Shown here: piece by piece, positions 3,369 to 63,819 of the stretch
Numbering within the stretch: position 1 is the stretch's first letter
Layout: each line of letters opens with the position of its first letter
NCBI GenBank assembly: GCA_027972325.1
Contig: JAPMOS010000061.1
Coordinates: forward strand, 31,001 to 95,000
Reading direction: 5' to 3'
Source: Paratrimastix pyriformis
Lineage: Eukaryota; Preaxostyla; Paratrimastigidae
DNA: 64,000 bases
The notes under the pieces: generated by a model
Told to the model about the DNA's origin: nothing
The model's database searches: none
What the model saw: only the letters and a program-made list of their open reading frames with translations
Program-made: the position numbers and the translations under genes

Positions 3369-5082
3369 TCAGGACGACGCAGTCAGTGAGCTCTCTTCCA
3401 GGGTGGTCACAGCCTCCAGCAACCGATCTTCAAGCCGTTTCCAGCGTGGGATTCGGCTGTGATGCTTGGCATCAAGGTCAATAACGCGAACACGGCCGGC
3501 TGCCGATCCTGCTGGAAGCCGTGCACCGATTGCAATCAGGAGGGAGCAGTCTACGGAAACAAAGTAATCAACCTGGGCTGAAACCGGATCAAACCTTTTG
3601 CGGTATCCGAACAAAGAAAACAACGCACCTCATTGACCGCAGTGCACCAGTCTTTCAGGGCCCCGTTGTCAAGGTTGTGATTGACTAAAACTTGTGGCTC
3701 ACCCGGGGCCTCGCCCCAAAAAAACCGGAACATGGGCGAAGGCGCCGATTTCGGTCGTTCGTCGACCAAGTTCGCCCCAAACCCCGAGAGTCCGTCAAGA
3801 CTCTTGGGAATTCGGCCGGATCGTGCAAGTTGTTCAAGGCAAATTTGGAGTTCCCCACAACAACAAGAAGTCTCACGCACATGCGCCTCGGCATGCTGAG
3901 CTGTGAGATAGGAGAGGGCCGTTCTGGCAGTGAGATCGGGCTCAAACAACTCGTCCAAAAGAAGAGCCAGTGAGGCTTTGGGAACCTCTCGGCAATTCAC
4001 AGCTCGAAGCAAAAGATTCAGCGTCTCCGGCGAGCCGCCAGGGCGCAAGAATTGATTTAACGTGAGGATGATGGATTCGTACAGGATGCTGATTCGATAA
4101 ATCCCCACCTGATCCAATTGCTGGATTGCCGCTAAATTCACGAGAACCCCGGAATCATGCAGCAAATCGCACGTGGCCACGAGAGCTTCTTCGACTGTCC
4201 TAGAAAAGGAGGGTAATGCCGTGATGAAGACCAGTCCAGACCAGCCAAGAGATCGCAAAGCAAGCTCGAATGAGTCCAATGCGCGAGCAGATCCATGGGA
4301 TGGGAGTGAATGCAAGCAACCATCAACGAAAAGCCGGAAATTGTTTTGTGGACACTCGAAAAGTGCGCGAAGTGAGCGCAAGCGCCTCGCACGATCGGCA
4401 GAGAAAAACGCAACAGGACAGTAAGAGCTGCGGACGTGAGCATCCGGAACACCAGCGCCGAGTTTCAGCGCCTGCATTAGACTGTAGCGACAAAGTGGTC
4501 CAGTGGGGCACCGAAACTCGGGAAAACCGATTTTAGGCTGCGAAAAGGTCAGGATCCAAAATGAATGCGGTGGCGACCTTTATCTCAATGCCTATTGTTC
4601 TGTGGATGGCAGGAATGTTTTCTGGACCAGGAAGAACTGTAGAGTCCTCGAGGAGGACGGCACAGGGATTATGCAGATCGATTGCAGCTGATTCCCGCCG
4701 ACATGCCGGTCGGACCGGCTCGATCGAACTCGCAATCCTTGCCAAAAAAGAAGGCGTGACGTTCACCAGAACCTCCACAGAAAATGAATCCGGTGGTTGA
4801 CAGGTGCGCAGACTGGAGCACTCCCGGAAGGAATAAGATGCTGGAAATGAGACGCAAAAAGTAAATCGTTTGTTGTGCGTTTAGCGATAGGATGTCCCAC
4901 TAATGAGCTTTTCGAAATCCGAAGAACCTTGCCTCTCTAAACCAGGAATATGCCGTCAGGCAAAAAGCTCTCCAGACCAAGTTCTCGGTTGTCCCTGCAT
5001 ATGATAAAACAATGCTACTTCCCCCTTCTGCCTTATAATGCCAAACTGAGGCGGTCATATCGACTTCGAGCAGCTCGAGCAT
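3369..5082 (-). CDS. IPPK: inositol-pentakisphosphate 2-kinase (IPK1)
   Basis: Makes IP6 (phytate) by phosphorylating the 2-position of IP5. Five exons join in frame: 5082-4978, 4936-4814, 4772-4578, 4537-3613 and 3577-3369, for 1557 nt or 518 residues, slightly longer than animal orthologues. The N-lobe begins with the nucleotide-binding strand pair WHYKAEGGSSIVLSY. The family signature EIKPK followed by GF falls across the exon 3/4 junction. The IPK1 motif PQNNFRLFVDG follows, and the C-terminal metal-binding region is VIDLD. Introns start GTCTG, GTCTG, GTCGC and GTTCG and are 35-41 nt long. The gene is head to head with GCP2, with 58 bp between the start codons. Family assignment rests on motif order and wording that match IPK1 throughout. 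Confidence 0.9.
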
Positions 5083-5140
5083 GTTCCCGGCGGATGCGAA
5101 GAAACCCCAGGGTCGTTGGGGTTAACGTCAAGCCGTTGCA
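5083..5140. promoter_or_regulatory. 58-bp divergent promoter, IPPK / GCP2
   Basis: The two start codons face away from each other across only 58 bp, so both promoters and both 5' leaders must overlap here or extend into the opposing coding sequence. No TATA box is visible. It contains TCCCGGC close to the IPPK start. Confidence 0.6.
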
Positions 5141-8100
5141 ATGCCGCCCCAGTCGTTACAGGAGTTCCCTCTCACTTATCAGGAGGTTGTTCTGATCGAA
5201 GACCTTCTGACATCATTGGCTGTATGTTTTTGGTTTGTGCCAAACAAACATCTTTCGTAGGGTCTCGAAGGAAAATACATTAAAATTGATGGTGAGAACG
5301 CTCGTTTTGTTCTGCAAGCTGCTGTTGGTTTGTGATTTGAATTGCTCGATTGCAGCTTATATTTCCATAGATATCTCTTTGGCCGAAATAACTCACAGGA
5401 TTCTCCCGCTCTGCTCGGCTTTTCTTTATCTTTCTCGGTTCAGCACCCTCCGACTCTCCCCTGAGCCTCCAACATCCCCCTCTGTAAAAGTTTCCCCCAC
5501 CAACTTCCGGACCTATGGGACCGTTTGTCACGCGTTGAGCGGGGCTCTGCGAACCACCTTGAAGGTGAGTGTATTGGCCTTGTTCCGCGGCACACTCTCC
5601 CTCTTTAGGACCATCTTGTCTTGGTCACCCAACTCGAGGAATCTTGGCGCCAAGGACAGCTGACCCTCCAGGTCTGCCCTCCTCTTGCCTGTCATGCCAT
5701 CGCCCGAACTCCGACCAGAAACTGCTCTGGTATGTCCAGCCGCACATCCAGCTCCTGGTCTCGCTCGAAAAATTGATGCGAACAGTCGGTGACGGAAACC
5801 TTCGAGGAGTCTGCCGTTGCTTTCAGGGCGGCTCTCATCGTTCCATCATGCAGGGCGAGTTGCTCTCTGTCCTGCACAGCCAGGCGACTTCGGCAGGCGG
5901 GTTTGTCCCTGGTGATGGTTTCGGCTGGCTGGTCTCATCACAGTCGATAGAAGCGCACTCTTTCAACAGGTTTATGGCCATCTCGTCGAATGTGCCTGTG
6001 AACCTTACCTGCGCATGCTTTCCGAATGGATTTACCGAGGTTTCTTCGTTTTGCCCGGGCCTCGGATTGACCTTCTTTCTGTAGGTGTCATTTGCGACCC
6101 TTACCAGGAGTTTATGGTCGAAGAAGTGCGTGCTTTCAGCAAGGACAAGCTGGGGACCGATTACAACGATGGGTTTGCCGAAATCAAATGGAAACTCCTT
6201 CACGCTTTTTCTCGGCAGATACTGGGAACAACGATACCGGGCTCAACGGGAGAGAGCCCCTTCCTTTTTGGTTCCCTTCCTTGAAAAGGTGCTCGTCACA
6301 GGCAAGTATCTGAATGTGATCCGCGAATGCGGCCGGGATATTACATGCACTGACCAGAGTCTGTCCCGTCTCATCGGGGTCTTCTGACATGCCTTCGCTG
6401 TGGAGTTCCGCTGAGGTACGTTTATCAGCAGGCCTCAGACCATAGCTTCGGAGGCCCAATCGAGTCGGCCTATCGCTTTGCCACCCGAAGCTTGTTGGAG
6501 ACCATTATGGAGCGCGACGGGTTGATCAGCCACCTCAAGTCTGGCATGCTTTTGTGGTGGCGCCCTTTCGATCTGTTCTTAGAACCATTCGGAGTTTCTT
6601 TTTTCTTGCTGAGGGTGACTTTTTCGTCCATTTCATGGATCTGGCAGAATGTCTGCTTGACTCACGTGTTTTCTTCACCCCACTGTTTTTCGTAGCCGAG
6701 CTCGCAAAGGAGGCTGGCTCTGTTGTTGTCTCGCGCCTGGCGTCCGTTTTGGAGCAGTCGCTTCGTTCTTGTGCTTCGATCGACAGCCACCGCGAGGATG
6801 TCGGGTTTGTTCTGCGCGGATGAAGTTTGATTGAATCTTTGTAGCGTCGAGATGCTCCCGGAGTCTCTTTTAGACCATCTCCGACGGGTGGAGGAGTTGT
6901 CGCAACGCTCTGCCTTGGGTGCTGGCCCTCTGCCGTCCTCAACTCGTTCTCCTGTCATACCGGCCACCGGCCTCCAGCCCAGAACCGGTTTGTGCGTTCT
7001 TCGCCCTTTCTCCCGATTTTTCCTCCAGGTTTGCACACAGTGGCTCTCACCTACTCGGTGCGCTTCCCCTTGTCTTTGGTGCTCAATCGCAAGTCTCTCG
7101 CCAAGTACCAGCTCATCAACCGCCTCCTGTTTATGGGCAAGGTTCGCGGATCGGCCCCTCGCGCCACTGAAATCTTTTTTAGATGGTTGAAAGGGCCCTG
7201 GGGAAGTCTTGGCGTTTGTTCGGCCGAAATTCTCTGTGGCCAACTGGTCATCCCTTCTTCAATCCCGAATCTTGACTAAAATTCGCTTAGATCCGAGTGA
7301 GCGTCGTGCGGCGATGTGTTATGTGGGGCTTCGCCATCGAATGCAACACTTGGTGCAGAATGTGCTCTACTTCCAGACCTGCGAGATCATCGATCCTCGG
7401 TGGCACGAGATGGAACAGTCTCTTCGCCAGGTCTGCCTCTCTCTGTTTTGGGGTGGTTTGATTGCCTTCTGTCCAGGCGACTACTTCTGACGAAGTCCTC
7501 AACCGTCATGCGGATTTTCTTGATACCTGTTTGGAGCAACTCCTGCTGACCGATATGATGATCATGCCTCTTTTGGTGCGCCTTTTCATGCACTGTTTGG
7601 CTCTGGCCGCTCTGTCCGACAAGATCATTCCACTTTCCGGCCCGGCCCTCACTCCCTCCGGTGAGCCTGGCCATTCGCGGCTGGGCCTTCAGAGGAGCTC
7701 AGGTTTGTTCGTGTTGTTTCTTCTCTTTCTCATTCTCTGGGTAGCCTTTGGTCCCCAGGAAGGCGCCATGTTTATCCGGTCGATTGCACAGTTGGACGAG
7801 GACTTTTCCAAGGGCATGAGCACTTTCATGCAGGCTCTGGCCGAGAGAGTCTGTCTCCCCGCGTGTGATTTCTCGAGTGATCTTGCTCTCAGGCCCAACA
7901 GGTTCGGGCGGGTCATGTGAGCAGTCTCCTGACCCGTTTGGCTTTCAACGGCTTCTATTCGACGCCCAACCCGTCAACCCCGCAAGGACCTTCGCGGCCA
8001 TCGGCCCCCGAGACGCTCTCTCGGCGGTTGGGTCTCGGACCCTCACCCGTCGCTGGTCCCACGGCCAGCTCTTCTCCCCTCCTCTCTCCGCACCCATCAT

Positions 8101-8267
8101 CCGATGTTCCGACCCCGAGCACGACAAGTTCCACCCGCCCCCCGTCGATGTCTCCGCCATTGTCTGCTCGGATGGTTTCTTCTTTGTCCCCGCGGAGTCC
8201 CTCGCTGGCCTCGCAGCTCGTTTCGGAGGATTCGGTCTCCATTACTGCGGAGGGTCGGAGAGAATAG
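5141..8267 (+). CDS. TUBGCP2: gamma-tubulin complex component 2 (Spc97 family)
   Basis: Part of the gamma-tubulin small complex that nucleates microtubules at centrosomes and basal bodies. About sixteen introns of roughly 45 nt, nearly all starting GTCTG or GTTTG, separate exons that follow GCP2 closely. They include LTYQEVVLIEDLLTSL, GLEGKYIKIDGENARFVLQ, HRILPLCS, KLLWYVQP, LRMLSEWIYRG with DPYQEFMVEE (GRIP1 hallmark), TGKYLNVIRECG, GDFFVHFMDLAE, LRHRMQHLVQNVLYFQ, and SSLLTRLAFNGFY in GRIP2. A Ser/Pro-rich tail of about 90 residues ends at TAG 8265-8267. The start at ATG 5141 puts the GRIP1 region almost at the N-terminus, so the long N-terminal extension of animal GCP2 is absent or lies in an unseen exon; IPPK begins only 58 bp upstream. 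I estimate about 800 residues. Confidence 0.93.
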
Positions 8268-8272
8268 AGGGC

Positions 8273-9127
8273 TCAGGACCAGTCCAAGTCGTCGTCGTTG
8301 ATCTCGGGGGCCGAGCCGCCGCCAGTCCCCACGTGAACGGAACGCTTTTCCTCGTAGTGTTCCCGAAGTTGATCGCGCAACTGTGCAGCATCCGGTTTGA
8401 CATCGTCGATCATACCTGCGCCGCCAGAAAAATGGGCACAACTTCTCTTGGGATCACAGACCGGCCCGCTCCAACTCTTCTTCGAGGGCGCTCGTCTGGA
8501 AGTTGTCCCCGCCCTCGAGACCATCAAAGCCAATGAGACTACCGAGAATAAGCGTGTTTCAAGCCGGAAGCAACAGACCGCCCAGTGTTGTTCCCTTTCT
8601 TGAAATAGCAGAGACAGGGGAGAACTTGAACGCGCAGTTTCGCCACGAAGAAGGGAGACTTTTCAACGTTCATTTTCAGTACCTTCAACTCAACATACTT
8701 TTTGGCAACTCTCTATTGGGGATAGCACCCGAAGTTCCCGTGAGATCTCAAAAAGACCTGGAGATGATCATCCAGTAATCGGCAGCGGGCAAAGTCGCTG
8801 TGGAAAAAGTGGACAATGCACTTTTCAGTATGTGTCACCTCATTTAAAAACTCTTGCTCTTGAATCTCTCGCAATTGGCCATGGCCTTCGGAGAGGAGAC
8901 GCTGCGCCATTGATTGCCTGGACAAACCGATCGATGGGAGGACAAAACAACGCAGACTTTTCTTTCATTTCTTGAAGACGCTTTTGTCTCAGCCGTTCCA
9001 GATCGCCATCCCGACCACCGTCTCCGCCCAGATCTGCCATCACAAAATTGAAATATGAGCGAGCCGACTTCGCCTGTTGAAAGCCGGCTAGCCCTTTTGC
9101 AGTTTTGAGGCCAACCGGGCGGCGCAT
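8273..9127 (-). CDS. TXNDC9: thioredoxin domain-containing protein 9 (phosducin-like, APACD family)
   Basis: Phosducin-like co-chaperone of the cytosolic chaperonin CCT, acting in actin and tubulin folding. A basic helix (DLERLRQKRLQEMKEK) leads to EGHGQLREIQEQEFLNEV, then the thioredoxin-like fold with IVHFFHSDFARCRLLDDHL, which has a single Cys where true thioredoxins have CxxC, as in the family. KYVELKVLKMNVE and a C-terminal DDDLDW tail follow. Introns include one of 40 nt starting GTCTG and one of 45 nt starting GTCTTT. The start is uncertain: ATG 9127 and ATG 9040 are in the same frame, and the usual N-terminal helix may lie in a further exon. Its stop is 5 bp from the stop of the convergent GCP2 gene. 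Confidence 0.85.
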
Positions 9128-9269
9128 CTAATGTTGTGATCCTTGGATACTGAGGAGACACCACTTTAAATTCTGACGATCAAATCTCATCCGTTGAGTA
9201 GATTTGAGTTTTGATTGAATTCCTTCCCCCGCAATTTCTCCCCTTCCAGTTGAATATCAGTGAGAGCTG

Positions 9270-12200
9270 TCAACATGGGACTTGTGTTTGCCGGCCGCTC
9301 TTTTGGGCGGTTCTGTGCGGGGAGCCCCCCCACTGGCGGCCCAGAGCAAGGCTCCTTCCGCACCGCCCTCTGGCGGGCCCAACCCCTGAGTGCCTCGTCG
9401 GCGGGAGTTCCTGGACCGTCAGCCTTGCATCAACCGAAGTCCCAGAGGTGCTGGTCAGGCCGTTTGGCCACGTCGAAGCTGATCTCGCGGCGACGAGCAT
9501 GACTCTTTCTCCGCCTTGCGACGGTGGGCCACGACTTCCTGCCGAACGCCCCCCCCCCCCCCCCCCCCCCCCCCCCGTGCCATCTTGGCTGCCTGGGAGA
9601 CACCAGATCTGGGAGCCCTGTGTGGCGCTCTCCAAGCCGACGGAGGCAGGACTATTTTCAATCATCGCAGGAAACAACAGGCAAGAATGGGGAGTCGGGT
9701 GGCGCTCACTCCAAGGTGAGATTTGCCGCCAAAAGACCCACGACGCACCAGGGCTTGGCCCGAATACTGCCTTGATGGCACTCCACCTGGAAGTGAATCG
9801 AAATCACCTCGTTCCAGGCAGGAGGGAGGGTGAGTCTCCATGTGCCATCGCGGGCCGTGAATGGCAGAATCCGGGCCCCTTGAGGGGGCTTGCTCGGGCC
9901 GCCATGCCACCGTTCCCCGTTCGGGAGGGTCACGAGCACATGGAGGCGCCGCGGCCCATCCTCGGAACCTGGAAGCTCGGAGGCGGTGGCCCAGTCATCA
10001 ACGGAGCGGTCTTCTGCCGGCCGGAAGGTGACAGGCTGCAGCCTCAGGATGGGCTGGCAAACGCCAGCGGGCGGAGGCGGCATTTGGAGGAGCGTCTCGA
10101 TGCCCGCTGCCGCTGACATCGGGTGGAAGGCGATCGCAATAAACAGAGGGCCTTCGTTGGGCAGCGGGACAGGTTCCGCCGGCGGAGGACGGCTGGACAC
10201 GGGAGTCGCACCACCGCGCCGCCGGCGACCGTCTTGCCCACGGGCATTTGGCCGCTTGGCGGAGAGCGCAGAAGGCTTCGGGAGCACCCGAAGGACGACG
10301 CCTTCCTCGGGCGTTTCATAACCGGCGTAGGACCCGGCGAACCCTTTGAGCGATTCAAGTGTGCCAACCCAGGCCCCGCACTGGTCCAGGAGGTTGTAGG
10401 GAGCATCGCCCAACCAGGTTTGGCAGCCCCTGGCAGCAACGACGGCCTCCGCTTCTGGCTCGGCGGATGCCGCTGCTTGACCCGGGTCCGGAATGGTCGG
10501 CAGAGCTCCGGTGGCCACCAACGCCCCGGCAAGGGAGGAGGCCGCTTGGAAGATATCCTCAAGGGGATGCGAAGCACCCAAGGAGGAACGCCACGTGGCC
10601 AGTGAGTTGACGAAAATGGGATCAAGGAGGGCGGGCGGGATCGCCTGCTCGAGATCGCTGGGGATGGGGTGATGAGGACTCGGAAAAAGCAGAGGAGGAG
10701 CCAGACAGGAGGGCACGAGAAAACTGCCGGGTGCTGGATGCGTGGGCCACGAACCGGCCCCATTGCCTTCGCCGCTCGGTAAAGGCGACCGAGAGCGAGT
10801 CCCGGGGAAGTCCCTCGACGAGGGCCGCCAGGAATCGGGCCAGGCGAGAGAGTGGGGCAGCGGCGCGACGAGCCCGAACGAGCCAGATGAAAAACATCCC
10901 AATCAGGCAAATGCAAAGGAGAGAGCCAAGGCCGGCAAGCTGACGGGCGAAACTGGATGAGCCGGGACAAGACAGGTTCAAGGGCGGGGCCAGACCACGA
11001 AAATCGTGTAAAGGGTGGCAGAGAACGGCACGGCCGAGCTGACCAGATCGGAGATGGATGCCCATGCGATTCCTTCAGGTGGTGGTTGAGAAGGGAGGGC
11101 GCGGGCAAGACAGACCCAGCCACAGGAGGCACCGGGCCCAGGTGAACTGGGGAGAGGCACAGATGCCGTGCGTCCGGCCGTGTGCGCATTGGTAGATCAG
11201 GGCATAGAGGAGCACCAGGGCCGAGATGACGAGCGTTGCAATGGGGACCAGAAGTCGAGACTATGATGAGAAAAACCGGTCGTGGCGATCACGATGACAT
11301 CCGGACAAACGGACCGTGTGCCCGTAAAACACGGCCAGCAAAGCGAGGACGGCTTTCAGGCAGAGCAAATACACCGAGAAGCCTGCGGTGAAGGCGACAT
11401 CCAGCCCTACGGTTTCGTGGTCTGGCCACTGCAAAACGCCGGAATGCCACTTCACCGGAAACGTCAAAGCACAAACCTGGAAGGTGGAGAGCACGGCCAA
11501 GCACAGGTAGAGCGCCAGGAGCCACGGAGCGAAGAAGGCGACGCTCCGGTGGAGCCCCGTAAAGCAAGTGACCTCAGGATTGATCAGGAGCGAGAACGGG
11601 GGCGACCGGGTGCCGTCCGTGACGCACACCAGTTGTTGTGCGAGCCCCGTGACGATGGGCACGAAAAAGACTCGGCCCAGGAGGAAGGTCAACGTGCGGA
11701 ACCAAGGAGTGGCCGAGTAGGTCCCCACGGGGCGGGCCTTGATAGCGTGATCGCTCTCGGGGGCTGGGAGCAGCAGCTCCATCACGCACGGGATGGTGAT
11801 CACCAGGTAGGTCAGGGCTGCCAACGAGGCGAAGACCGTAAACCCGGAACTGAACCCCAAGCTGCCACTCGCGGGCTGGAACTGCAGCAGCACGGCCCGG
11901 GCGAGCTGGCGCGGCCACTCGACGAGGAGCGCCTGGGAACTTGGGTGGATGCCGGGAAGGTGGTAGAGGAAGCACAGTTGCAGGAGCTCGTAACAGAGAT
12001 AGATGAGCATCAGCACATTGTGCCACGAGAGCTGGACGGCACGGGACGGGTTCGGGATGGCCCACTTGGCCGGCGAACAGAAGGACGACCAGAAGGGGAC
12101 GGTGGCCACGAGGACGGCAACCATCAGGAACGCAAAGACACTCGCCGTGTTGCCGGCCTCGGTCGAATTGGGCGTGATGGCGAAGATCCAGACGAAGGGG

Positions 12201-15200
12201 AACACGTAGAAGAGCAAGGTGCACAAGAAGGACAGCATTTGTCGGATGCACTTCGAGCGGACGAAGCCTTGGAACGCCTCGGCAAGCAATTCCAGCGGGG
12301 TAAAGAAGGAGCAGACGGCGGTGAGCATCATATAGCCGTATGTGCTGCAGAGCCCGAAGATGCTGAGGAAGGACTTGAGGTCGCGGCCCATTTTGGCATA
12401 GTACCGCCGCACAACGGCGCGCGACTCGGCGACCGAGCGTCGGATCAAGAGGGCATCCTGACGGAAAAATGAGGGTCGGAGGGCACCAGAGCAGCGCGGG
12501 CAGACCAGAACGTCCCCGAGGAACGCAGGGGTGTTGTACAGGGAGACCATGAAGAGCAGGGCGGCGATCAGGTAAAATAGGTCGCGAAAGACCTCGACAC
12601 ACTGCTCCTTGCAGACCGCAAGGCGCTCCTCGGGCCTCCGATGCAGGTTCAGGATGAGTGCGGGGATCCTGTAGATGGTCCCGACGAGGACGATGGCCGC
12701 TAGGATGGCGGGAAGAGCCCCGCCCGGCAGGGCTTCGAAGAAGTACCGTCGGGTCTGCGCCCACTCGCGCTCCTTGATGCCCGCGAGGCCGGAGCACTTG
12801 TGAACGAGCGCCTTTTGCTCCTTGGTGGCCTGCGGAAAGAACGGGTCAGGGCGTGGTGCGGGGTGTGTGAGTGGGAGAGCAACGAAGATCCTGCGCCCAT
12901 TCGCAACATTCGGGCGCCTCGCATATGAATGTCATGCCGGGAAGGAAAAGAAGAATTAGCACTTTGGTGCCTCTGAACGGTTTTTCTTCTTCGTGCGATC
13001 TCGGGTTGGACCTGTCGGCCATTTTTTCGTGCTTCCAGCTTCGGGTCCCTCGAGGCGCCAGTCGAGCCTTTTTCGCAGCGTTCGGCGAGAACGAACCGCA
13101 CGATGACGCAGGGGCGGCGGTGGATACCGGGGGAACCAGGAGTTCGGGCTGCACGGACCGCCCGGATGTGTTGGGCAAGCTCTGCCCTGCGCCGCGCCAT
13201 CCCATCGAGGAGGCCTTGGTAGAAGGCGTACCGGTCACGGGAGGCCTCGACGAACGGGGTGTGCGAGATGCTCCGCTCGAAGAGACCCGGGGGGAGGACC
13301 CCAGCCGGCCGATCCTCATTGGCCTCGCGCCGGAGGGGGCAGAGGAGCGCATTCGAGGCGGCAATCTGGTCCATGAAAACTACGAACGAGAAAGGGCGGA
13401 GAGGAGATTGAGGGCGAGCGGTGATGCGCCCCAGTGGGGAGGCGAAGAACGGCGCGGCGGCAGGGCTGGAGCGGGTCGAGAAGAGTGGGAGAGCGAGAAG
13501 GCATCCCGGAGGCGGAGGGCGAAAAACCGCCACAGCTGCGCACCTTGGTACCGCCGCTTGTCCAGGGCCCGAAGCTCCTCCCCAAAGTGGGCGACTTCCT
13601 CCATGTTCGTTGTGCGGAGGGTGCGCACGGCATCGTCGACGAGCCGCTCGCGCCGGCGGAACGTGTCCAGCAGCCGCGAGTTGGAGTAGGTCGCCGAGGG
13701 GTCCGTGGCGGCCCGGATGGCGGATGTGGGCTCGCCGGCCTTCAGCTGCCACGAGCAACGAGAAGGCGGGGAGGGCGGAGGCGTCGAATAAGGTGCGAAG
13801 AGACCGACTGACGTTCGCCGCACCCCCAACATGGTCGGAGGGTCGGTTGAAGATCCCCCACCGTGATGAGACCCAGACCCGGCCCGGGACATGAACAGCC
13901 AGCTGGGGGCGGGGCGTCATGGCCGCGAAAGCAGGCACAACAGCCCCGAGTCCACGGAAGGTGGGGGCCGACAGACCATCGACGCAGCCTGCTGCTGGGC
14001 GGCCAGGAAGACCTCCCCGGCCGTGTCCATGTACAGCTTGATGACCAGCAAATCCTTCAGATTCCGGCGGGCCTGCTGCTGCTCGGCCGTGCCCAGGACG
14101 ACCTGCCAGACGCTGATGGCCTTGGGGGGGACCAGGTGCACGAGGACGAAGGCCAGGATGGCGAAGAGGTCGATCCAGAACTGGCCGAAGTTGATCCACA
14201 CCTGGCCCGAGAAGACCGTCCAGAGGGTGTGGCGCGGCCGCTTGGCGGCGGTGATCAGGGACTTGTACAGGAGGAAGGCGCGGATCAGGGTCACGTTGAG
14301 GAAGACGAAGAGCGCCAGGGCGGGCAGATCAATCAGCGTCCAGACAAAGTGCCGGAGGACAGCGATGTAGCGAGGGCTGGGAAACAAAGAAGGGAAAAGG
14401 GAGCGAGAGAGAACTCGCGAATGAGATGTGGGGAGGGGGGGGGGGGAGGGGGGAGGGGGAGGGGAAGAAGGACGGAGGGGAGAGGAGTAGAGGACCCAGC
14501 GCCAGTGAGCTTGCACGTCTGGGAGTGGTCAGTATTCACGGTGCAGATCTCCACCCACATCGGGTAGGCGCGCCAGAGAGTCGCCGTGACGCAGGCGCCA
14601 ACGAGGACGAAGGGAAGGTCGACAAAGAGCAGGAAGAAGTGCTTGACCACGATGAGCCTGCCGAAGACGATGAGGATGCCAAAAAACCATGAGGATAGAA
14701 AAACCATGAGCAAGGGCGATGGCGGGGCGGCGGCGGGGGCGGAGGCGCGATGCGTGTGCGAATGGCGACCTTGGGCGCACCTCGGAGAACTCTTGGTGAG
14801 CATCGCGGCGGGCCTGGTTGTACGCGCGGAACTCCCGGACGGCGGCGTAACCGCGGTAGCCGGTCAGGGCGAGGACGAGAGCGAACGGGACGAAGACGAG
14901 GTCCAGCAGGAGCAAAGCCGTGTGCTTGAGCACGAGGAGTCGCCCGTGCAGGTTCCACGAGACGGATGCCGTATCTGGGGCCGCGACCGGGAGGGCCGGG
15001 GGTTGGTCGTCTCCGGGCGCAGGGGGCGCCGGCACGGGGGCCGCCCGGGCCTTCAAAAAGCGGCGGGCCTCGAGGATCAGAAGGACCAGCCGATACACGG
15101 TCGCCGTCAGGATGAGCAGCAGGACGATGATGGGCAGGTCCAGGAGGAAGTTGCCGAACTCCTGGAAGGGCAGAGCCAGGTAGCGCATCTTCCGGTACCT

Positions 15201-16948: not shown

Positions 16949-17031
16949 TTGAGCTCGGCCTGTTGTCCAGGAGGGGAGCCGCAAATCTGACACTTTTGTT
17001 TTTTCCTACGATTTATACGGAGTCGCTACAT

Positions 17032-18570: not shown

Positions 18571-25245
<6,675 letters not shown>

Positions 25246-25323
25246 GTCAGCACGGCATAAATTCTCTCACTCGGGCTCTCGATACAAATTCTAACTTTTC
25301 AAAAAAAGGGGACGGTTTGATCG
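25246..25323. promoter_or_regulatory. 78-bp divergent promoter, EFL1 / 244-residue gene
   Basis: The region between the two outward-facing start codons is AT-richer than the surroundings and has an A7 run. No recognised element. Confidence 0.55.
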
Positions 25324-44121: not shown

Positions 44122-44166
<45 letters not shown>

Positions 44167-48107: not shown

Positions 48108-48141
<34 letters not shown>

Positions 48142-48342: not shown

Positions 48343-48487
48343 CGACGTGCCACGTGCCTTCTTTTTTTGTAAGATTATGGGGTATCGTCCTCTCGAAAAA
48401 CGAGGACCCACGACAATCTTCGGATCCCTGTGGTGAAGGGGAAGGTGGAGGCAGTGCGTGCGGTCCGCCGGACGCCACGCCAAGACA

Positions 48488-51313: not shown

Positions 51314-51445
51314 CTTTTCACCGGCGCTTGGATTTTTGCTCCCAGGTTCTTTCGGCCTCAAGGGTCTGTTGTTGTTGGTTTTCTTTCCGATCCGATTTGT
51401 GCCTTTCAATCTTGGTGGGATGCTGTTTCTCGGCGTCGTATGTAG
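51314..51445. promoter_or_regulatory. 132-bp divergent promoter, misato / GNL3-like
   Basis: Region between outward-facing start codons. AT-richer and T-rich on the plus strand. No recognised element. Confidence 0.55.
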
Positions 51446-54400: not shown

Positions 54401-55722
54401 CCCGGAGTTCGACCTGAACGGCCTGCAAGAGACCAACCTCGTGTGCCACCTGCCCGAGGCGGCCAATATGGGGCCCATGGTGGCTCTGCCCCCGGCCTCC
54501 GCCGCCGCCCCCATGGAGGAGGAGGAGGAGCAGGAGGAGGATGACGAGGAGGAGGAGGAGCATGCCAAGCTGCCCGCTGACCAGATGATTGATGTCTGTG
54601 CGCGTGCCGCCCCTTTCTTCGCGCGCTCCCGACATCTGGAATTGGATGGGATTGGTTGATGATGATGATTGGATTGGACGATGAAGATGACTTGCTGATG
54701 ATTGGATTGGATGGGATGATTGATGTCTGTGGCCGTGCCGCCCCTTTCGTTTCGTTGCCCACTCCGATATGATGAGGATGATGTTTGATGATTGGGTGGA
54801 GTGATAAGGTGCTGATGACTGGATGATGACTGGATGATGACTGGATTGTTGAAGTTGATGACGGTCTCGTCACACACACGCCGCCGCCACCACCCGGCGC
54901 TTCGCACGCCACGACACGACATACTGATGTTCCCCGGCCCTTCCCCTCGCAGGTGGAGGACGAGGACGAGGAGGAAGACGAAGACGAGGAGGAGGAGGAG
55001 GAAGACGAGGAGGGCTTCCGCTCGGCCGACCCGTTCGGGGCCAAGAAACAGCCCAAGAAGGTCAGGGTCGACCCGGCCATGCCCACCGTCCAGGTCCGTC
55101 TGCCCGTCCTGTGCCTGTCGTCGTGCCTGTGTCGTGTTTTTTTGGCCCGGGTGGGACCTCATGCTATAACCAAGCCCACTTGCAGTCTCGGCGGGTCCGG
55201 ACATGGTTGGTTCAAACGCACTTTCAAACAAAAATACAAATACAAAGGAGGATGAAATTGGATGTCGATTTTTGTTGTGATTGGTTGTTTTCGTCCATTC
55301 ATTCCCAGCCTTCATTCCCTGTTTGCTTTGCTTATTAGAAGCCCCAATCGGCCGCCCTGGCCTCCTTTGCCGACCCGGCCACGCCCAACCCCTTCAAGAG
55401 CGCCGCCGAGTTCGCGGCCGCCAACGCGGCCCACCTGGTCCCGTCCACGGCCACCGTCCCCCTGGGCGGCCACGGCCCGGCCCGGGCCAAGAAGGCCGCC
55501 AAGCGCATGGAGATGCCCGCCGCCGCCCCCAAGGCCGAGCAGCCCGCCGAGGAGGCCGCCCCCACCAAGTCGCTGAAGGTCAAGCGGCACGTGGCCAAGA
55601 GCTCCTTGCTGCCCAGCGCGGACTCGCTGAACCCCCACGTGGGCGCCCCCCGGAAGCGGGACCTCAAGCAGGCCAAGAAGAACCAGCGCCGCGCCGCCGC
55701 CAAGGCCGTCAAGACGGACTAA
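51446..55722 (+). CDS. GNL3L: nucleostemin/GNL3-like nucleolar GTPase
   Basis: Circularly permuted GTPase (YlqF/YawG family) of the nucleolus, needed for 60S subunit maturation. It opens with a basic nucleolar-targeting helix ([20 protein letters not shown]), then a charged coiled coil ([20 protein letters not shown]). The G motifs come in permuted order: [21 protein letters not shown]4 ILNKI/D across an intron, G1 [15 protein letters not shown]2 GTT, and G3 [25 protein letters not shown] and an acidic stretch of Glu/Asp follow. The tail is basic ([17 protein letters not shown]). Introns start GTCTG or GTCCG. Two are long and repeat-filled (53.0-53.6 kb and 53.7-54.0 kb). The stop is at 55720-55722. 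Confidence 0.93.
53030..53570. repeat. 14-bp minisatellite with higher-order repeats, in a GNL3-like intron
   Basis: Tandem CTCGTCATCATCTG units (about 30) are interrupted three times, at about 53222, 53332 and 53486, by the same insert reading TTCAGGCTTTCCACATCGTC plus CCATGTTTCAAT. This makes a higher-order array. The first units are a CGTTCGTCGTCATCAT variant. The array lies between the exon ending KIEDPISP and the exon reading [14 protein letters not shown]. Confidence 0.85.
53745..53950. repeat. degenerate 24-bp repeat (GGTGCATGGTGGATATCCCC)n
   Basis: About eight imperfect units with C-run interruptions, in the next GNL3-like intron, between LGKLKR and [11 protein letters not shown]. 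Confidence 0.75.
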
Positions 55723-55906
55723 GACGCCCACCCCGTGAGGAGGCGAACTGACCTTTCTTCTTCAGCCCTCGGACCGACGTGCCCCCCAAAGACCGAAAGA
55801 GAAAGATGGTCCCCCATGTGGCTGGCCGAGGAGGACATACATGAAAGAGAAAAAATCGTCCGCCCTTGGCGTCTGCCGGCGGTCCCGCCCATCGGGCGAC
55901 GGGCGG

Positions 55907-57043
55907 TCAGAAGGCCTGGTGGGACTCGTCGGCTTCGTCGTCGCTGATGACCGTCACGGACTGCACCACAAAAAAGACGAGCCGGCGAAAAGCGGATCAG
56001 AGCGGTTCGCGGGCCGTTGACGAGCGGCAACAAGCAAACCAACAGGACTGACCTTCGAAGCGGGGCGGCTCGGTGGCGATGGGGCCGCTGTTCTTCGCCT
56101 TGTGCGGGTTGCAGGAGCCGGCGGTGCCGCTGGCCTGCGCGAGAGGGCAGGAACGGTGAAGCGGATTTCGTCAGACGGACGGAACAGACTTGTGCTTCTT
56201 GCCTGCCGAGGCGGCGGCACGGCGGGTGGGCTTCGTGTCGGGGGCGGGGCGCTCGGTGTCCGAGTCGATGTCAAAACGCAGGGCTGCAGCATGTGAGAAG
56301 GATGTGAGTACGTGGCGGGAGGCGAGGGGAGGGGCGTAATGGTGGGTGGATGCGGACCTCGCGGTCGGGCTCTCGTGGCCTTGCCCCCCTCGTCGCTCTC
56401 TTCTTCGCCTGATGTGGAGGGGAGGGGAGAGGCTGGGTCAGAGAACCGCGCCGTCATCTCTCACCTCCTCTCCTTCCCCGTCTTCCCCCACTGTCCCTTT
56501 GGCCGTGGGGGGGAACAGACTCGGTTCGGGCGAGGAGGCCGCAACCGAAGATCCGTCGTCGTCGTCGTCGGCACCCTTCTCGATCTCCTCCTTATGCCCT
56601 TCGGCTTTCTTAATGCCGGCCATGGTGAAGTTGAGGAAGTCGTCTTCCACAGCCGCATCTTCATCGTCGTCGTCGTCGTCCAACACCCGCCTTGGTGGTG
56701 GCGGCTTGCCCCCCGCCGCAGCAGCTGGACCAGTGGCCGCGGCCGCGGCCGGACCCGGAGCGCCGGGGGCAGGGGCGCCCATGGGTGGTGTAGCGGCACC
56801 ACCTGGTTCGCGTTTGACTGTGGCCGTGACGGCCGTGGTGGCGGTAGCTTTCGGTTTGAGTTGAGCCCGCTTCTCGTGAACCATTGTCGAGAGCTACCAT
56901 TCAATGCAACATGGATCGCGGTTTGATCAGGGTCTTACATGATGATGATGATTGGATGATGATGATGATGATTGGATGATGATGATGATGATTGGATGAT
57001 GATGATGATTGGATGATGATGATGATTGGATGATGATGATGAT

Positions 57044-57133
<90 letters not shown>

Positions 57134-59936
57134 GGATGATGATTGGATGATGATTGGATGATGATTGGATGATGATTGGATGATGATTGGATGATGATTG
57201 GATGATGATTGGATGATGATGATGATTGGATGATGATGATGATGATGATGATTGGATGATTGGATGATTGGATGATGATGTTGGTGATGATGATGATGCC
57301 AAACAGTCCGGTCACTCGAGCTCAAGCCAGGAGGTGGCTCAGGCGGACATCCTTCTCTGCGCTCGCATCGGCATCCTGGATGAGCAGCCGCTGGACTGCC
57401 CCAAGCATCTTGGTGACGGTCTTGGCAATGGCGTCCTTCTCGTCCTTCTCGACGAAGCTCGTCACCGCATCGGAGAGTTCGCTCGGGAGGAGGAGCTCCA
57501 GATCGTCTTTCTGCAAAATCAAAAAAAAGGTGGTGAGAGGACGGGGGGGGGATGAGGATGCCATGCAGCCATAGGTTCAACATCGAGGGCGGGCTACGAA
57601 CCAAACAATCATCAATCAGTTCCTCCATTCGGATCGTGTCCCCTTCGCCGGTTGGAAGTTTGGGGGAGTCCATCTCAGACGCCCCCCCTCCGGGTTCTCG
57701 CTTTCGGGACCCTGACGCGCACGGATGGGAAAGGACGGGACGAGTGAGGTTTTTGGGTGGGACCGACTCCTGAGGAGGAGGGAGATGAGGGGGAGAAAGG
57801 AGAGGAGGCAAGTGAACGCTTCGCGACCTGCTCCTGGTGGTCGTTTTCGATTGAAGATGATCATCTCGCCTGGATTCGCGACCTTCGTCGCAAACATGCG
57901 CCCGATCATTTGTGGATTCACTGGCGTTTCACCCGAGTAGGTCACCTGCTCATGGGAAGAGTTGGCGGGGTTGGCACCCAGGGAGAACGACAATCGGCAG
58001 ACTCGAAGACGAACAAGCGGAAGCATCGGTGGGTTGGGGTCCCCGGGAGCGGGCGCAGGGATCATGCTGTTCACCTACAGGCGATGTTGTTGAGCAGGGG
58101 ACCTTGCTACCCCCGCGCGAAAGGGAAAGAGACCTTGGCCTCGATCTCGGATAACACTCGCTGCTGGGGCAGCCCATCGGGCAGAACGAGCTCGTCGATA
58201 AAAAAAGGGCGCTGCGACTTGAGCGGCATGATTTCGAATCTTCGTTCGACACCACAAACACTCAGAACGCCGATGTGCCTGGCGAAGCGTTCAAAGGGCA
58301 TGCGTGTGTATGGTAGGGGGTGGCAGATGATGTGGGTGAGGTGCGTGTGTACGTCCGTGCGTGGGTGTGGTGCGCGCGTGCGGTGGGTGCCGGGTGGTGT
58401 GGGTGTGTGTTGCCCATCCCTGCGTGTGCGCGCGTGGCGGAGCCTGTGCTTATGCCCTCCCCCTGCGTTGTAAATGGCTCGTTCCCCTTTCTGGGTCCAA
58501 AAAGAAAGCAAGGTCACGACGACAGACTTGGGTTTGGCCTCACCTTCGGTGAGTTGGGTGACGACGGACGAGCCTGAAACAAAAAAGATGAGCGCAAACG
58601 TGCTGGATTGCCGATGTGTCGTGCAGACCAGGCTGGATGATTTCAAATTTGTTGATGGATGTCACCGGATCGATTTTACATTCGTGCTCGTGGGCCCAGA
58701 TGACAATGTCCAGCCAATCAGGGAGCAACGTGTCTGGAATATGATTTGTTCTCCCTCCGTGTGGCTCTCTGGAATGAGGAAGAGGTGCGAGGGTGGGTGG
58801 GGGGGGGGGGGGGGGGGGGGGGGGATGGGCGGAACGAGTGGATCGAGAACCGTGAGGAGATGAGAACCCCGGGAAAGAGAAGGTGCCGACCTGTTTTGGT
58901 GGATGACGAAAATGTTGAACCAGCCCTCAGGATCCTGGACGGGTCTGATCCAGGTGACCTTTTGGTCGAGGAAGGCGTGGTGGAGTCGCTCGTCGTGGAC
59001 ATTTCCGAGCCCATAGAGAGCAATCTTGGTTCTCCCCTGAAGGACGTCACGCGGAGGAGAAGCAGTGGGCGGGGATGGATAAGAGGCGGCCCCGCCAGTG
59101 ATCAGACCTTTTCGATGAGAATCGGGTAGAGACGGATGTTGTCCAGGTTGTCCACCATCCCAAAATAGTTGACCAAATTGGAGGAGGCGAGAAGATCCAG
59201 AGCGCTGAGGGTGCCTTCCTACATATGGCATAGGGGTTGAATGGAGAGCGCGTAGAACGTCGCAGACTCCGGAGGGGTCATCGTGGTTGCCGTGGACAAT
59301 AAAGATTGGGAGAGAAATGTTGTAGTTCGGGTCTGCGTGGGGGGGGGGGGGGGGGGGGGGGGTCAGTCGGCAGGGGCCGTTGACAGGAGCAGGCCTTCGA
59401 AATTCACACTCGCAAAGCTATCGAATGGTGAGGAGAGGCTTAAGAGAGGAACGTCAAGACCTGTTCGGAAAATTTAGTGACTGGTCGCTGGTCACGCGGA
59501 AGTCTACAGGATCGCTCCCGAGGCAGAACGAACGGAGCATATCCATCGTTCGGTGCATCGTTTGCCGCGAGGGCTTATTGTCGTGGAAAAGATCGCCTCC
59601 CAGAAGGAGAAAATCGACTTTGGTATCTTTGGCTTGTTGCAGGATCTCGTGAAAAGCCTGAAAAGAGTCATTTGCACGAACGGGGTCGCGCTCCCAGGCT
59701 ACAAAATCATAAAAATACTGAGGCGGAAAGCGGACCACCAAGGTGGTTGTCACTGTGGTTTCCAGTCAAACATCAGCATTACAATGTGATTAATTAACAC
59801 TGAGAACAGACGTGGCGATCAAAATCCGAACGACATCTCGTTCTGAGTGTGGTAAACTATGTGGGGGATCAGGATATGCGCATGGGTGTGAGACAGGCTT
59901 TTCGGGCTGTGGCTGTGTGCCTGTTGTGTCAGCCAT
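55907..59936 (-). CDS. MRE11: MRE11 double-strand-break repair nuclease
   Basis: Mn-dependent nuclease of the MRE11-RAD50 complex, acting in double-strand-break repair and telomere maintenance. Phosphoesterase motifs in order: ATDNHLG (I), FLLLGGDLFHDNKPSR (II), FIVHGNHDDPSG (III), NIFVIHQNR (IV), VIWAHEHECKIDP (V). Further segments are KIALYGLGNVHDERLHHAFL, QPGSSVVTQLTEGEAKPKSV, RPFFIDELVLPDG, LPTGEGDTIRMEELIDD and VTSFVEKDEKDAI. After a trinucleotide-filled intron an acidic tail (VEDDFLNF) follows, ending VISDDEADESHQAF at 55907. I choose ATG 59936 (MADTTGTQ); the residues before VVRILIATD are not conserved, so the start is uncertain. Introns start GTCTG or GTCCG. Motif V has Ala where the family has Gly (WGHEHEC). 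Head to head with eIF2B beta. Confidence 0.94.
56938..57295. repeat. (GAT)n / GATGATTG microsatellite in an MRE11 intron
   Basis: About 360 bp of GATGATGATTG units with a pure (GAT)n core of some 30 triplets at 57042-57130. A GTCCG donor after DASAEKD and a TAG acceptor before LSTMVHEKRAQ remove it from the message, so the poly-Ile, poly-Ser and poly-His ORFs over it are not real. Confidence 0.88.
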
Positions 59937-59984
59937 CTGCCGGAATGGGGCATCGTCCGCTGGTGTGAACGGCTTTTCCGCACG
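59937..59984. promoter_or_regulatory. 48-bp divergent promoter, MRE11 / eIF2B beta
   Basis: Shortest divergent spacer in the window, if MRE11 starts at 59936. Contains TGCCGGAATGG. Leaders and promoter elements must overlap or reach into coding sequence. Confidence 0.5.
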
Positions 59985-62900
59985 ATGAGTGAGCTCACCC
60001 CTGCCCAGCAGCAACACGTGCTGGATTTTACAGCGCGCATCAAAAACAGAAAATTCACCGGGTCTCTCGAGGTGGCCGTCCAGACGGCCAAGCTGCTCAA
60101 ACGAGTGATCGAGGAACGCAAGTCCTGGCAGGACTCTGTCCGCCTCAAAGAAATCATCCGAAAGATTGGCAGCCAATTGGCCGGGTACCGCCCTGTTGGT
60201 CTGCGCGATATTTTCCTTGCGACGGTGCCCTTCTCACATCATCCATCCCTTTTCGCAACCCACACCTTCAGACCTTGTGATGGGCAACATTATTCGGCGT
60301 GTTCTCCACATCATTCGTGAGGAAGAGGCACAACATATCTTCCGGCCCTCCAGCCCAACAGATTCCTTCTCTCCCCCCGGGTTCATCACACCTCCGGCCA
60401 CCCCCCCGCCCCCACTCCCTGTCCCCTCGTCCCCGATTATGCCCGGTTCACCAGTTCTGGCAGTTTCCCTTGCGATCGAGCACTCACAGCCTTCTCCTCC
60501 CTTGGCACGACATCCTAATCTGCAGCCCCTGCTGGGTGCCATGTCAACCCCGGGGTCATCGAACCGCTCTCGGCCCGTGCGTCCGTCTGCCCGTTCCTGG
60601 ATTGTGTGCATGCGGGGAGAACCACTGATCAGAATCTGACGTGTGATCATCGTCGTCTGTGTTTGACCCGCGCTCTTCCTCCTCCTCCTCCCCCCCCCCC
60701 CCCCCCCCCCCGCCACCACCGCGTGGGGCGGCGCAGTGAAGACTACCTCGACGCTGATGGTGGAGCGGCACATGTCCCTGCGCAACCTCTTCGAGGCTCT
60801 CCCCGAGGCGGCCTCCGCACCGGCAGATGGTCAGTTTTATGGCGGCACCCTCACCCATAGTGCTCCCATCCCCATTTCTTTGCCCCGGGGGGGAGCCACA
60901 CACTCCAATCGCCCCCATTTCCATATCTGGATTGATCTCACCGCCCATCCACCCCCTCCCTGGCCCCCCGTGCCCGCAGTGTCGATCAAGGATCCCCTGG
61001 TGGAGCAGATTAACGAGCTCATCGGCGAGATCGAGACCCACTTCGACCCCATCTGCAAGCAGGCCCTCGAGCATATCTATCAGAGGTCCGCCGGCACCCC
61101 CTCTGGGTTCCCCATCCGGATGCCCACGTCATCCCCCATCCGGATCATCCGTATGCCAACACCACCCCATCTGGGTGCCCATATCCCCCCATCTGGGTGT
61201 CTACATCACCCTGGTGTGCACGCCGGTCGACGCAGTGATGCCGTGTATCACCCGATCGTGTGATCGTGGTCGTTGGTGTTAATGCGTGGTTGTCTGTCAG
61301 TTTTGCTCCTTGTGGTTGTGGTTGTGATGATGAGCAGCGGCCACCGCAATTGGTGTTTGGGCGGGACGACCGGCGGTGAGGGAGGAGGCTGCATGCACCC
61401 CGCATTGATCACCATCTCATGGGGGTTCTGCAGCGAGATTGGGCATGGACAGCGAGGTCATGTTTTCATGGGCGCATATGGGCATATGGGCATATGGGCA
61501 TGGACAGCACGTTTTCATGTGATCATCTCTGCATCTGGTTACTGGGCATGGACAGCGAGGTCATCCTGACCTACGGCTACTCGAAGACGGTCGAGCGGTT
61601 CTTCCTGCACGCCAAGGAGGCCGGTCGCCACTTCGAGGTGATCGTCGTCGAGGGCGCCCCCAAGTCTGTCACACCCACGCATCATCGTCCACGCATCACC
61701 TCCACGCCTGCGGTTCACTCGGGATCACCCGATGACTCCACGCGCGCACTCGCTCTCCCTTGATCCTGACTGGGCACGTTCACCCTCGGCTCCTTGATAC
61801 GACATCCTCCCTTGCCCGCCTCCCTGTGCCTGCCTGTGTTGGTTTTTTTGCTGTGTCATATGCTCCGATTGCCCCTTGTCTTGCCTGTGTCGGGGACCCC
61901 CTTTGGCGCGACACATGCTGCTGCTGTGCGATGTGGTGAGAGCGTGAGCTGTCCATCCACACCATGTGACGGATCCCTTGTGGGTCCTGATTTCCGGTCT
62001 CGGATGTTGACGTGCTCTTCCGCCTGAGCGCTTTGCCGTTGACTGACCCTTGTTCGCTGCTGCCTGCTTGCGTATGTTGGCCTGGTGAACACTGCTTGCC
62101 TATGGCGCTTCCCTCGTGGACTGTGCCTAAACTTCTTGCGGTGTCCTTCCTCCCTCTTTTAAATGGTTCTGGTTCACCCCCCCAAAGTTCTTTTTCGTTG
62201 TGCCTCATCTTTGAGAGACCTCCTTGTCCCTTCGCTCGGTCCCTTTGAGACACGACGACATCTTCTGCCAAATTCCTTGCCATGGGATTTGATGCGCTTT
62301 GAAGGGATGTCTGGTCTGGGCGTGTCGGTCAACGACACTTTGTGGGCCACCTCCACAGTGCACTGCCTGTGGTACTAGGATCCGCAAAGCCCTTGCCGTG
62401 GGATTTTGATGCGCTTTGAAGGGATGTCTGGTCTGGGCTGCCGGTCAACTGCACTTTGTGGACCACCTCCAAGGTGGGAGAAGCTTTTTGAAACGGAAAC
62501 CGGATGAGACACCCAGCCCCATGCGACCCACGAGCCCGAATTCGCGCTCAACGCACAGCAGAACCCGTGTCCCCCACACACACCCAACTCACTCTCGACA
62601 CACACACACACCACCCCGCATCCCTACGCGCCGGCCGGCCAGCTTCGAGGGCCGCCGGATGGCGAAGGCCCTGGTGCAGCAGGGCATCCCCACCCACCTG
62701 ATCACCGACGCGGCCTGCTTCCTGATGATGTCTCGCGTCAACAAAGTCGTCATCGGCACGTCGGCCGGTCCGTGGGGTGGGGCGGTCTCTCTCTGGGGTG
62801 CCTGCTTTTCCGCGCTGCCGTCTTGTGCGTCACCACTTTGGGGTTTCATCATCTCCCTGCCGTTGCTTCCCCCCCCCCCCCCCCCCCCCCCCCCCCCACC

Positions 62901-63819
62901 CCAGTGATGGCCAACGGGGTCTCATTGCCGATGCGGGTCTGCACCTGGTGGCCATGGCCGCCAAGCACCACTCCGTCCCGCTAGTCGTCCTGACGGGCCT
63001 CTACAAACTGTCCGTCCCCATGCCCCCCCCCCCCCCCCCCCCCCTTGTTTGCTGCCTCGTGGGAAACAGTGTCCTAACAATTTCTTTCTGTCCATCTCTG
63101 TCTGTGTTTGTCCTGTCTGCCCTGTCCTGTCTGTCCTGTCTGCCTCTGTCCGTCCATCTCTGTCTCTCCTGTTTCTCTGTTTCCCTTCGATGCCGTTGTT
63201 GTCCTGTCCGTCCGTCCGTCCGTTCGTGCCCCCCCCCCCCCCCCCGGCAGGTCGCCCCTGTTCCCCAACAACCAGGACAACTTCAACGAGCTCCTCAGCC
63301 CGGCCGACATCCTGCCGTACTCTTTCGCCGGTCCGACACCCGCCAAAATGCACCCCTGCACCTCCCAGTTGCCGGCTTGACCTGCCTGCGACCCTTTGAA
63401 GATGTGACGCTGTTCCCGTGCGCCAGTCGGCGCGGCCCGATTGCCGCCATCCTGGCCCCGCCATCCTGGCCCCGCCATCCTGGCCCCGCCATCCTGACCC
63501 CCTCACGTGATCACCCCACCGTGATACCACCTCACCTCATCATGACCCCATCACCTCATCATAACCCCATCCATCACCTCATCATAACCCATCACCTCAT
63601 CATGCCCCCATCCATCATCTCATCATCATAACCACCTCATCCATCACGACCCTCATCATGATCTCCCACTCTATTGTCCTCGTCGTCGTCATCATCATCC
63701 AATCATCTTTCCTCATCGTCCTCTCGGCGCCTGCAGCCGAACTGCCCAACCTGCACATCGTCAACCCGCGGTATGACTACATCCCCCCCGAATACGTCTC
63801 GCTCTTCATCACAAACAGG
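59985..63819 (+). CDS. EIF2B2: translation initiation factor eIF2B beta subunit, 3' partial
   Basis: Regulatory subunit of the eIF2B guanine-nucleotide exchange decamer. ATG 59985 opens MSELTPAQQQHVLDFTARIK. GNIIRRVLHIIREEEAQH follows, then a Pro/Ser-rich insert of about 90 residues absent from animal orthologues. After a C-run intron come ERHMSLRNLFEALPEAA, EQINELIGEIETHFDPIC, KQALEHIYQ, VILTYGYSKTVERFFLHAKE, FEVIVVEGAPK, GIPTHLITDAACFLMMSRVN, KVVIGTSA, a segment ending HLVAMAAKHHSVPLVVLTGL, and finally NPRYDYIPPEYVSLFITN. The last visible exon ends near 63819 at a GTCTG donor; only the final 20-30 residues lie beyond the window. Introns carry four C runs and several tandem repeats. Confidence 0.94.
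61095..61215. repeat. degenerate CCCCATCTGGGTGCCCA-type tandem repeat in an intron
   Basis: Imperfect units of CCCATCCGGATGCCCA and CCCCATCTGGGTGCCCATAT follow the exon ending ALEHIYQR of eIF2B beta. Confidence 0.65.
62275..62480. repeat. about 110-bp direct duplication in an eIF2B beta intron
   Basis: The block starting GCGCTTTGAAGGGATGTCTG and continuing GTCTGGGC...CACTTTGTGG.CCACCTCCA occurs at about 62290-62360 and again at 62410-62475 with a few differences. Confidence 0.8.

Follow-up and report, generated by a model that had tools for sequence, protein, structure and literature searches.

Paratrimastix pyriformis is an anaerobic flagellate, a metamonad of the Preaxostyla. We analyzed a window of 64,000 nucleotides from its genome (GenBank assembly GCA_027972325.1, contig JAPMOS010000061.1, positions 31,001 to 95,000), in which GCP2, the gene for gamma-tubulin complex component 2, has its coding span at 5141..8264 on the + strand with 18 introns, MRE11 has its coding span at 55910..59936 on the - strand with 19 introns, and EFL1 lies at 18574..25239 on the - strand (a span given by alignment and not the exact gene end). 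An initial annotation of the window had claimed that its introns share a noncanonical 5' splice site (donor), GTYYG, mostly GTCTG or GTTTG, and are rarely canonical, implying either altered pairing with the U1 and U6 small nuclear RNAs (snRNAs) or recognition by protein. We find that P. pyriformis marks most intron starts with GT(C/T)(C/T)G, not the usual GT(A/G)AG, and that its U1 snRNA genes differ from ordinary U1 at the two nucleotides facing the altered positions.

To place the donors, we aligned the P. pyriformis database proteins P0001 (GCP2) and P0158 (MRE11) onto the window by spliced alignment with no splice-site preference, then reran the alignments with a GT-AG tie-break only; the rule proposed in the initial annotation was used in none of our three donor tests. 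Each protein was the top database match to a query for its gene, a crude query in the case of GCP2. With the tie-break, the spliced translations were identical to the database proteins, at 777/777 residues for GCP2 and 687/687 for MRE11, and the number of introns (18 and 19) was unchanged with or without it. Judged from organism and name, both proteins appear to belong to the published annotation, in which case this evidence is independent of the initial annotation. For gene finding, the genome paper describes training models that were curated and transcript-aware, intron hints taken from RNA-seq, and PASA/EVM (PMC10703272).

All 37 introns have the ends of the major U2-type class, 36 being GT-AG and one GC-AG. 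Among the 36 GT donors, 27 read GTYYG (GTCTG 15, GTTTG 6, GTCCG 4, GTTCG 2), and the remaining nine are GTATG, GTGAG, GTTTC, GTCAT, GTCTT, GTCGG, GTCTC, GTCGC and GTCAG, once each. Only one is GTRAG, and the donors do not follow a GTRAGT consensus. Position +3 is a pyrimidine in 34 of 36 (C 25, T 9; A and G once each), +4 is T in 25, C in 6, A in 3 and G in 2, +5 is G in 31, and +6 is T in 17 and C in 14. On the exon side, -1 is G in 23 and -2 is A in 19. The remaining GT sites on the coding strand of the two genes read GTYYG in 31 of 304 cases (Fisher p = 1.4e-16 against the donors). GTTTG is frequent (6/18) in GCP2, the gene of lower GC.

With a slash marking the exon-intron boundary, the donors of GCP2 introns 1 to 18 (+ strand) are gct/GTATGT (5222..5260; an exception, with A at +3), ttg/GTTTGT (5328..5370), aag/GTGAGT (5565..5608; an exception and the sole GTRAG), cag/GTCTGC (5672..5718), gga/GTCTGC (5809..5853), cgg/GTTTGT (5901..5950), gag/GTTTCT (6040..6084; an exception at +5), tgg/GTTTGC (6173..6218), aga/GTCTGT (6359..6405), caa/GTCTGG (6539..6582), aat/GTCTGC (6651..6695), cgg/GTTTGT (6805..6844), ccg/GTTTGT (6988..7028), aag/GTTCGC (7142..7182), ctg/GTCATC (7247..7290; an exception at +4 and +5), cag/GTCTGC (7431..7476), cag/GTTTGT (7703..7744) and aga/GTCTGT (7849..7892).

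The donors of MRE11 introns 1 to 19 (- strand) are cac/GTCTGT (59753..59811), gtg/GTCCGC (59699..59735), cag/GTCTTG (59418..59460; an exception at +5), aag/GCCTGC (59333..59394; the GC-AG intron, which obeys the same rule), gga/GTCTGC (59219..59267), aag/GTCTGA (59037..59107), cag/GTCGGC (58769..58890; an exception at +4), ctg/GTCTGC (58574..58628), caa/GTCTGT (58279..58527), aag/GTCTCT (58075..58133; an exception at +5), cga/GTCTGC (57949..58002), cag/GTCGCG (57712..57827; an exception at +4 and +5), ttg/GTTCGT (57511..57601), gat/GTCCGC (56894..57348), cgg/GTCCGG (56644..56754), cga/GTCTGT (56409..56520), gag/GTCCGC (56284..56357), caa/GTCTGT (56135..56189) and aag/GTCAGT (55961..56052; an exception at +4). 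The GCP2 introns, at window positions 5222-7892, are all 39-50 bases long, and in MRE11 the lengths span 37 to 455 bases. Of the 37 introns, 14 have a simple branch-point motif in their final 50 bases, in many cases too far upstream.

No P. pyriformis protein was among the 37 database matches for EFL1, though the gene lies in the window, so this test rests on homologues from other species; in the database, the P. pyriformis model may be absent, split or incorrect. We aligned 10 of the 37, demanding GT-AG and nothing further, and counted the 17 introns on whose placement at least 8 of the 10 agreed, leaving out the many junctions with fewer homologues behind them. Twelve of the donors are GTYYG (25120, 24884, 24656, 24535, 23031, 22539, 20991, 20643, 19203, 19093, 18850 and 18677, - strand) and none is GTRAG. 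The other five are GTCTC (24773), GTATG (23910), GTTGC (23565), GTCGG (22693) and GTGTG (21215); at least one of these, the GTTGC intron of 385 bases, resembles an alignment artefact.

Beyond these genes, a de novo gene finder with uninformative splice sites was trained on 264 kb, made up of the window and twenty 10-kb stretches of other contigs. It converged on GTCYG from every starting point: a flat start gave 263 introns (143 GTYYG, 3 GTRAG), a canonical GTRAGT start 260 (138 and 3) and a GTYYG start 272 (158 and 4), in sets that include false introns and from a model that missed GCP2 entirely. Across all 25,514 GT sites of the training data, on both strands, GTYYG makes up 8.7% and GTRAG 2.4%. 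The 182 introns common to all three starts comprise 112 GTYYG and 2 GTRAG donors, with A at +3 in 1%. Two-class gene finders gave the same result for GC-rich genes, together with a second class of about 30 introns with mixed donors and no clear consensus. The P. pyriformis gene for SNRNP27K itself carries an intron, read by eye, with the donor aag/GTCTGC between MGFPGSFGTTK and GKNVEG. The proposed GTYYG donor and the rarity of canonical sites therefore hold in all three tests. The naming of GTCTG and GTTTG as its main forms fits GCP2 and MRE11 (15 and 6 of 36) and fails in the wider sample, where GTCCG is commonest (68 of 182, against 37 for GTCTG).

We searched the P. pyriformis genome (56.06 Mb in 495 contigs) for snRNA genes, the locus counts being lower bounds; the genome paper gives 56.63 Mb, 633 scaffolds and 60.94% GC for the published assembly (PMC10703272). 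The Rfam U1 model RF00003 identified eight full loci on eight contigs of up to 1.1 Mb (E 3.7e-13 to 2e-10), each matched over model positions 1-166. All eight start with AUACAGACCU instead of AUACUUACCU, and each begins AUACAGACCUU. In the model alignment, all eight read AUACAGACCUUG where the model reads AUACUUACCUGG; at the 5' end none has ACUUACC and all have ACAGACC. Nucleotides 5-6 are AG, not UU, in 8/8, nucleotides 3-4 and 7-9 are kept, including C4 opposite +5G in every locus, and nucleotide 11 is U instead of G. Positions 5 and 6 of U1 are pseudouridines in human and yeast. Stems I-III, the Sm site and stem-loop IV are present in the model alignments of loci L005 and L012. The Sm position reads AUAAUGUUUGG in seven loci and AGAAUGUUUGG in L012, with GCGUUCGCGC in all eight.

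A DNA search with the U1 body minus its first 11 bases returned the same eight loci and a 32-base 3' fragment. Neither this search nor the model search revealed a U1 copy with an ordinary 5' end, and within these lower-bound counts we reject a second, ordinary U1 set. The fragment, which matches the U1 3' end (L052:1-400), runs into a stretch of Ns, so a ninth copy with an unreadable 5' end may exist. A CCCATAA element precedes the RNA start by about 55-66 bases in all U1 (8), U6 (4) and U5 (7) loci (L001-L019); the U6 genes carry an additional TATA-like stretch near -30. Contamination is unlikely, since the U1 genes lie, among other contigs, on C441 and C24, which also gave stretches for intron training.

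The other snRNAs are ordinary in the copies read. U6 keeps ACAGAG in 4/4 loci, and we reject the altered U6 that the initial annotation had also entertained. U5 loop 1 is ordinary, CGCCTTTTACT, in 7/7 loci, and the U2 branch-site region is GTAGTA in the three inspected of nine full-length copies. Among the RNA regions read, those of U1, U6, U5 and U2, the change is thus specific to U1. Moreover, nucleotides 1-7 of the altered U1 are AUACAGA, identical to the U6 box, so that both RNAs fit the same donor.

Aligned with the donor, A5 of U1 faces +4 and G6 faces +3, placing the changed bases precisely opposite the changed donor positions. Compensatory changes in U1 or U6 had been anticipated opposite +3 to +5; U1 compensates at +3 and +4, with C4 unchanged opposite +5G. 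We counted pairs over eight positions, -2 to +6, for the 36 GCP2 and MRE11 donors. The mean is 6.42 pairs per donor with P. pyriformis U1, compared to 4.97 with UU at nucleotides 5-6, and replacing UU by AG gains pairs for 30 donors, leaves 5 equal and loses for 1. When all 16 variants of nucleotides 5-6 were ranked by energy, AG came first for the 18 GCP2 donors; for the combined 36, for the 182 de novo donors on which all starts agreed and for the 260 of the canonical start it came second, with GG ahead of it; UU ranked 11th, 12th, 12th and 13th in these sets. At 1260 random GT sites GG came first and AG sixth, so the lead of GG is partly a matter of base composition. The donors also carry what the altered U1 predicts: A5 calls for +4U, present in 25 of the 36, and +3A is nearly absent (1 of 36; 1% of the 182), as G6 would demand. 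The +4C of GC-rich genes is not predicted.

We consider it very likely that the donors and the U1 reader of P. pyriformis changed together and that the altered U1 explains GTYYG. Read from the sequences, the 5'-splice-site reader of the major spliceosome would have changed from AUACUUACC to AUACAGACC, with the donor consensus shifting alongside, genome-wide, to (A)G/GU-Y-(U/C)-G-Y. A5 would pair with +4U, G6 would pair with C or U at +3, C4 would still face +5G, and C8 and C9 would face +1G and -1G. The ACAGA of U6 complements +6U, +5G, +4U, +3Y and +2U of the same donor, and U1, then U6, would read the same donor nucleotides with the same heptamer, AUACAGA. The proposal that the spliceosome of this organism recognizes a different 5' signal is supported in its U1 form, and U1 presumably uses the A5 and G6 pairing in the cell, to which a protein may contribute.

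Several observations weigh against this interpretation. Nine of the 36 donors depart from GTYYG, GTCCG, common in GC-rich genes, puts +4C opposite A5, and GG at nucleotides 5-6 would pair better overall than AG. The U1 loci score 50.8-60.2 bits, all short of the RF00003 gathering threshold of 69.5, and sub-cut-off matches to this model also turned up in 3 of 14 prokaryote control genomes when it was run at E <= 1. The RNA is divergent elsewhere: judged against loop motifs that we take to be those of the U1A and U1-70K sites, the stem-loop II loop, CGAAAG, is unlike the U1A site, and the stem-loop I loop, GAUCACACAGG, resembles the U1-70K site in part only. On the protein side, a search of the genome for U1-70K (PF12220), run without a positive control, found none, and we recognized no U1C, the sole zf-U1 match (L042:1501-1608) resembling WBP4. 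A WW-like stretch lies downstream of that locus in another frame. Finally, the donors fit both U6 and U1, and on these data either RNA could be the stronger selector.

That last point underlies the best surviving alternative, which we regard as possible but doubtful: U6 is the main reader, the donors evolved to the complement of its unchanged ACAGA, and U1 followed as a passive or secondary partner. GUYUGU does complement canonical U6 ACAGA from +2 to +6. Entamoeba, whose donors are GTTTGT (PMC4053983) and whose U1 is reported missing (PMC13292270), would represent this state at its extreme, and the oxymonad Streblomastix has +4U without +3Y (PMC1501061). However, all eight U1 loci hold exactly the two matching changes, and idle drift is not expected to strike nucleotides 5-6 alone. 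The exon-side matches to U1 also persist (-1G in 23 and -2A in 19 of 36), though loop 1 of U5 is a reader of the exon as well.

It is improbable that loss of METTL16 or SNRNP27K removed a preference for +4A that depends on N6-methyladenosine (m6A) in U6, as in Saccharomycotina. The +4U of 25 of the 36 donors is the phenotype that Parker et al. 2023 tie to such losses (PMC10581693), but such a loss would account for neither +3Y nor the U1 change, and both genes are present. The METTL16-like gene encodes CNPPF; because its Pfam family also matches in 5 of 14 prokaryote controls, this assignment rests on residues read by eye. SNRNP27K has QYMNRKG, which we take to hold Met141. We give slightly less credence still to the initial annotation's other suggestion, that the choice of donor is made by a protein (U1C, an SR protein or another factor), with only an incidental part for the RNA changes. 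Protein recognition has been proposed for the U1-less Entamoeba (PMC13292270); here, the two changed U1 bases sit opposite the two changed donor positions, and nothing pointed to a protein, on a side that we hardly probed. It is extremely improbable that these are introns of the minor (U12) spliceosome or that their donors are misplaced, for although a U12-like snRNA gene exists, GTYYG differs from the U12-type donor, RTATCCTT, a form taken by none of the 37 GCP2 and MRE11 donors, a gene finder begun at GTRAGT moves away from it, and we reject misplaced junctions on the identity of the spliced translations to the database proteins. The U12-like gene (L051:1501-1675, - strand) scores 44.9 bits, short of a gathering threshold of 53, and carries a AUGAGUAAGGAA stretch; P. 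pyriformis may keep a minor spliceosome, and a search of the genome for U11, made without a positive control, found none.

How might a joint change of U1 and donors have come about? We infer that the two coevolved, perhaps starting from GUAUGU: the donor would have drifted toward the complement of U6, and U1 would have followed. Such an ancestor is suggested by a relative, Streblomastix, whose donors have A, U and G at +3 to +5 (PMC1501061). Starting from GUAUGU, +4U would already pair with the central A of the U6 box, a U to A change at nucleotide 5 of U1 would add one U1 pair with it, and a U to G change at nucleotide 6 would then favor +3Y, a pyrimidine with which the G of the U6 box pairs as well. 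Entamoeba, by analogy, suggests that donors no longer held to +3R and +4A by U1 move to the complement of U6. More tentatively, the U1 5' arm may now be a second ACAGA box, in which case the compromise of one donor between two RNAs would be gone, the hand-over from U1 to U6 would become a like-for-like strand exchange, and METTL16 might methylate A5 of U1. A5 now stands in the sequence context of U6 A43 (UACAGA), and its methylation would swap the lost pseudouridines for m6A.

Elsewhere in the window, a tandem GGGGCC-type array lies at about 88-205 and a poly-C run at 9549-9576; poly-C runs also occur at the 3' ends of some predicted introns. Rfam and transfer RNA scans of the window found nothing.

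Compared with canonical U1 (RF00003) and its GURAGU donor, the P. pyriformis RNA has the same four-helix architecture, AUAC..ACC reader frame, Sm-like site and multicopy genes, but AG at nucleotides 5-6 leaves no uridines there to pseudouridylate, nucleotide 11 is U, and the donor has mostly pyrimidines at +3 and +4. The compensation is that of the engineered suppressor U1, in which a change at the U1 5' end restores pairing to an altered donor (Zhuang and Weiner 1986, as cited in PMC11732430), except that here it is natural, genome-wide and present in every full U1 locus found. Parker et al. link a +4A to +4U switch in yeasts to METTL16 and SNRNP27K, propose that a change of U1 pseudouridine 5 to A could compensate +4U, and report ACUUACC as invariant in the U1 candidates of 227/230 yeasts and 9/10 outgroups (PMC10581693). 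Saccharomycotina share +4U, in Watson-Crick pairing with the central A of U6 ACAGA, but have a U1 that is invariant in the species examined, whereas P. pyriformis keeps METTL16 and SNRNP27K and has the sought change at nucleotide 5, plus one at position 6. In Entamoeba, too, the donor equals the complement of U6 ACAGA, but U1 is reported absent there, while that of P. pyriformis is present and rewritten. Cyanidioschyzon merolae likewise has an snRNA change opposite +4, but there it lies in U6, whose central A has become U, and the alga lacks U1 (cited in PMC10581693 and PMC11732430). The literature that we searched, with thin coverage of subscription papers, contained no report of this U1 change, and in the genome paper the word "splicing" occurs 0 times and "splice" once, in the reference list (PMC10703272).

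In practice, any gene finder or splice predictor built on the assumption of GTRAGT donors will fail on P. pyriformis. To our knowledge, the donor-reading sequence of U1 is commonly treated as fixed, and its 5' end hardly varies elsewhere. In P. pyriformis, the donors of the genome and all of the full U1 loci found seem to have undergone a joint, natural change. This makes it possible to test which of the two RNAs, U1 or U6, takes the lead in donor evolution, and how a switch can be made by an RNA with multiple gene copies along with its numerous target sites.

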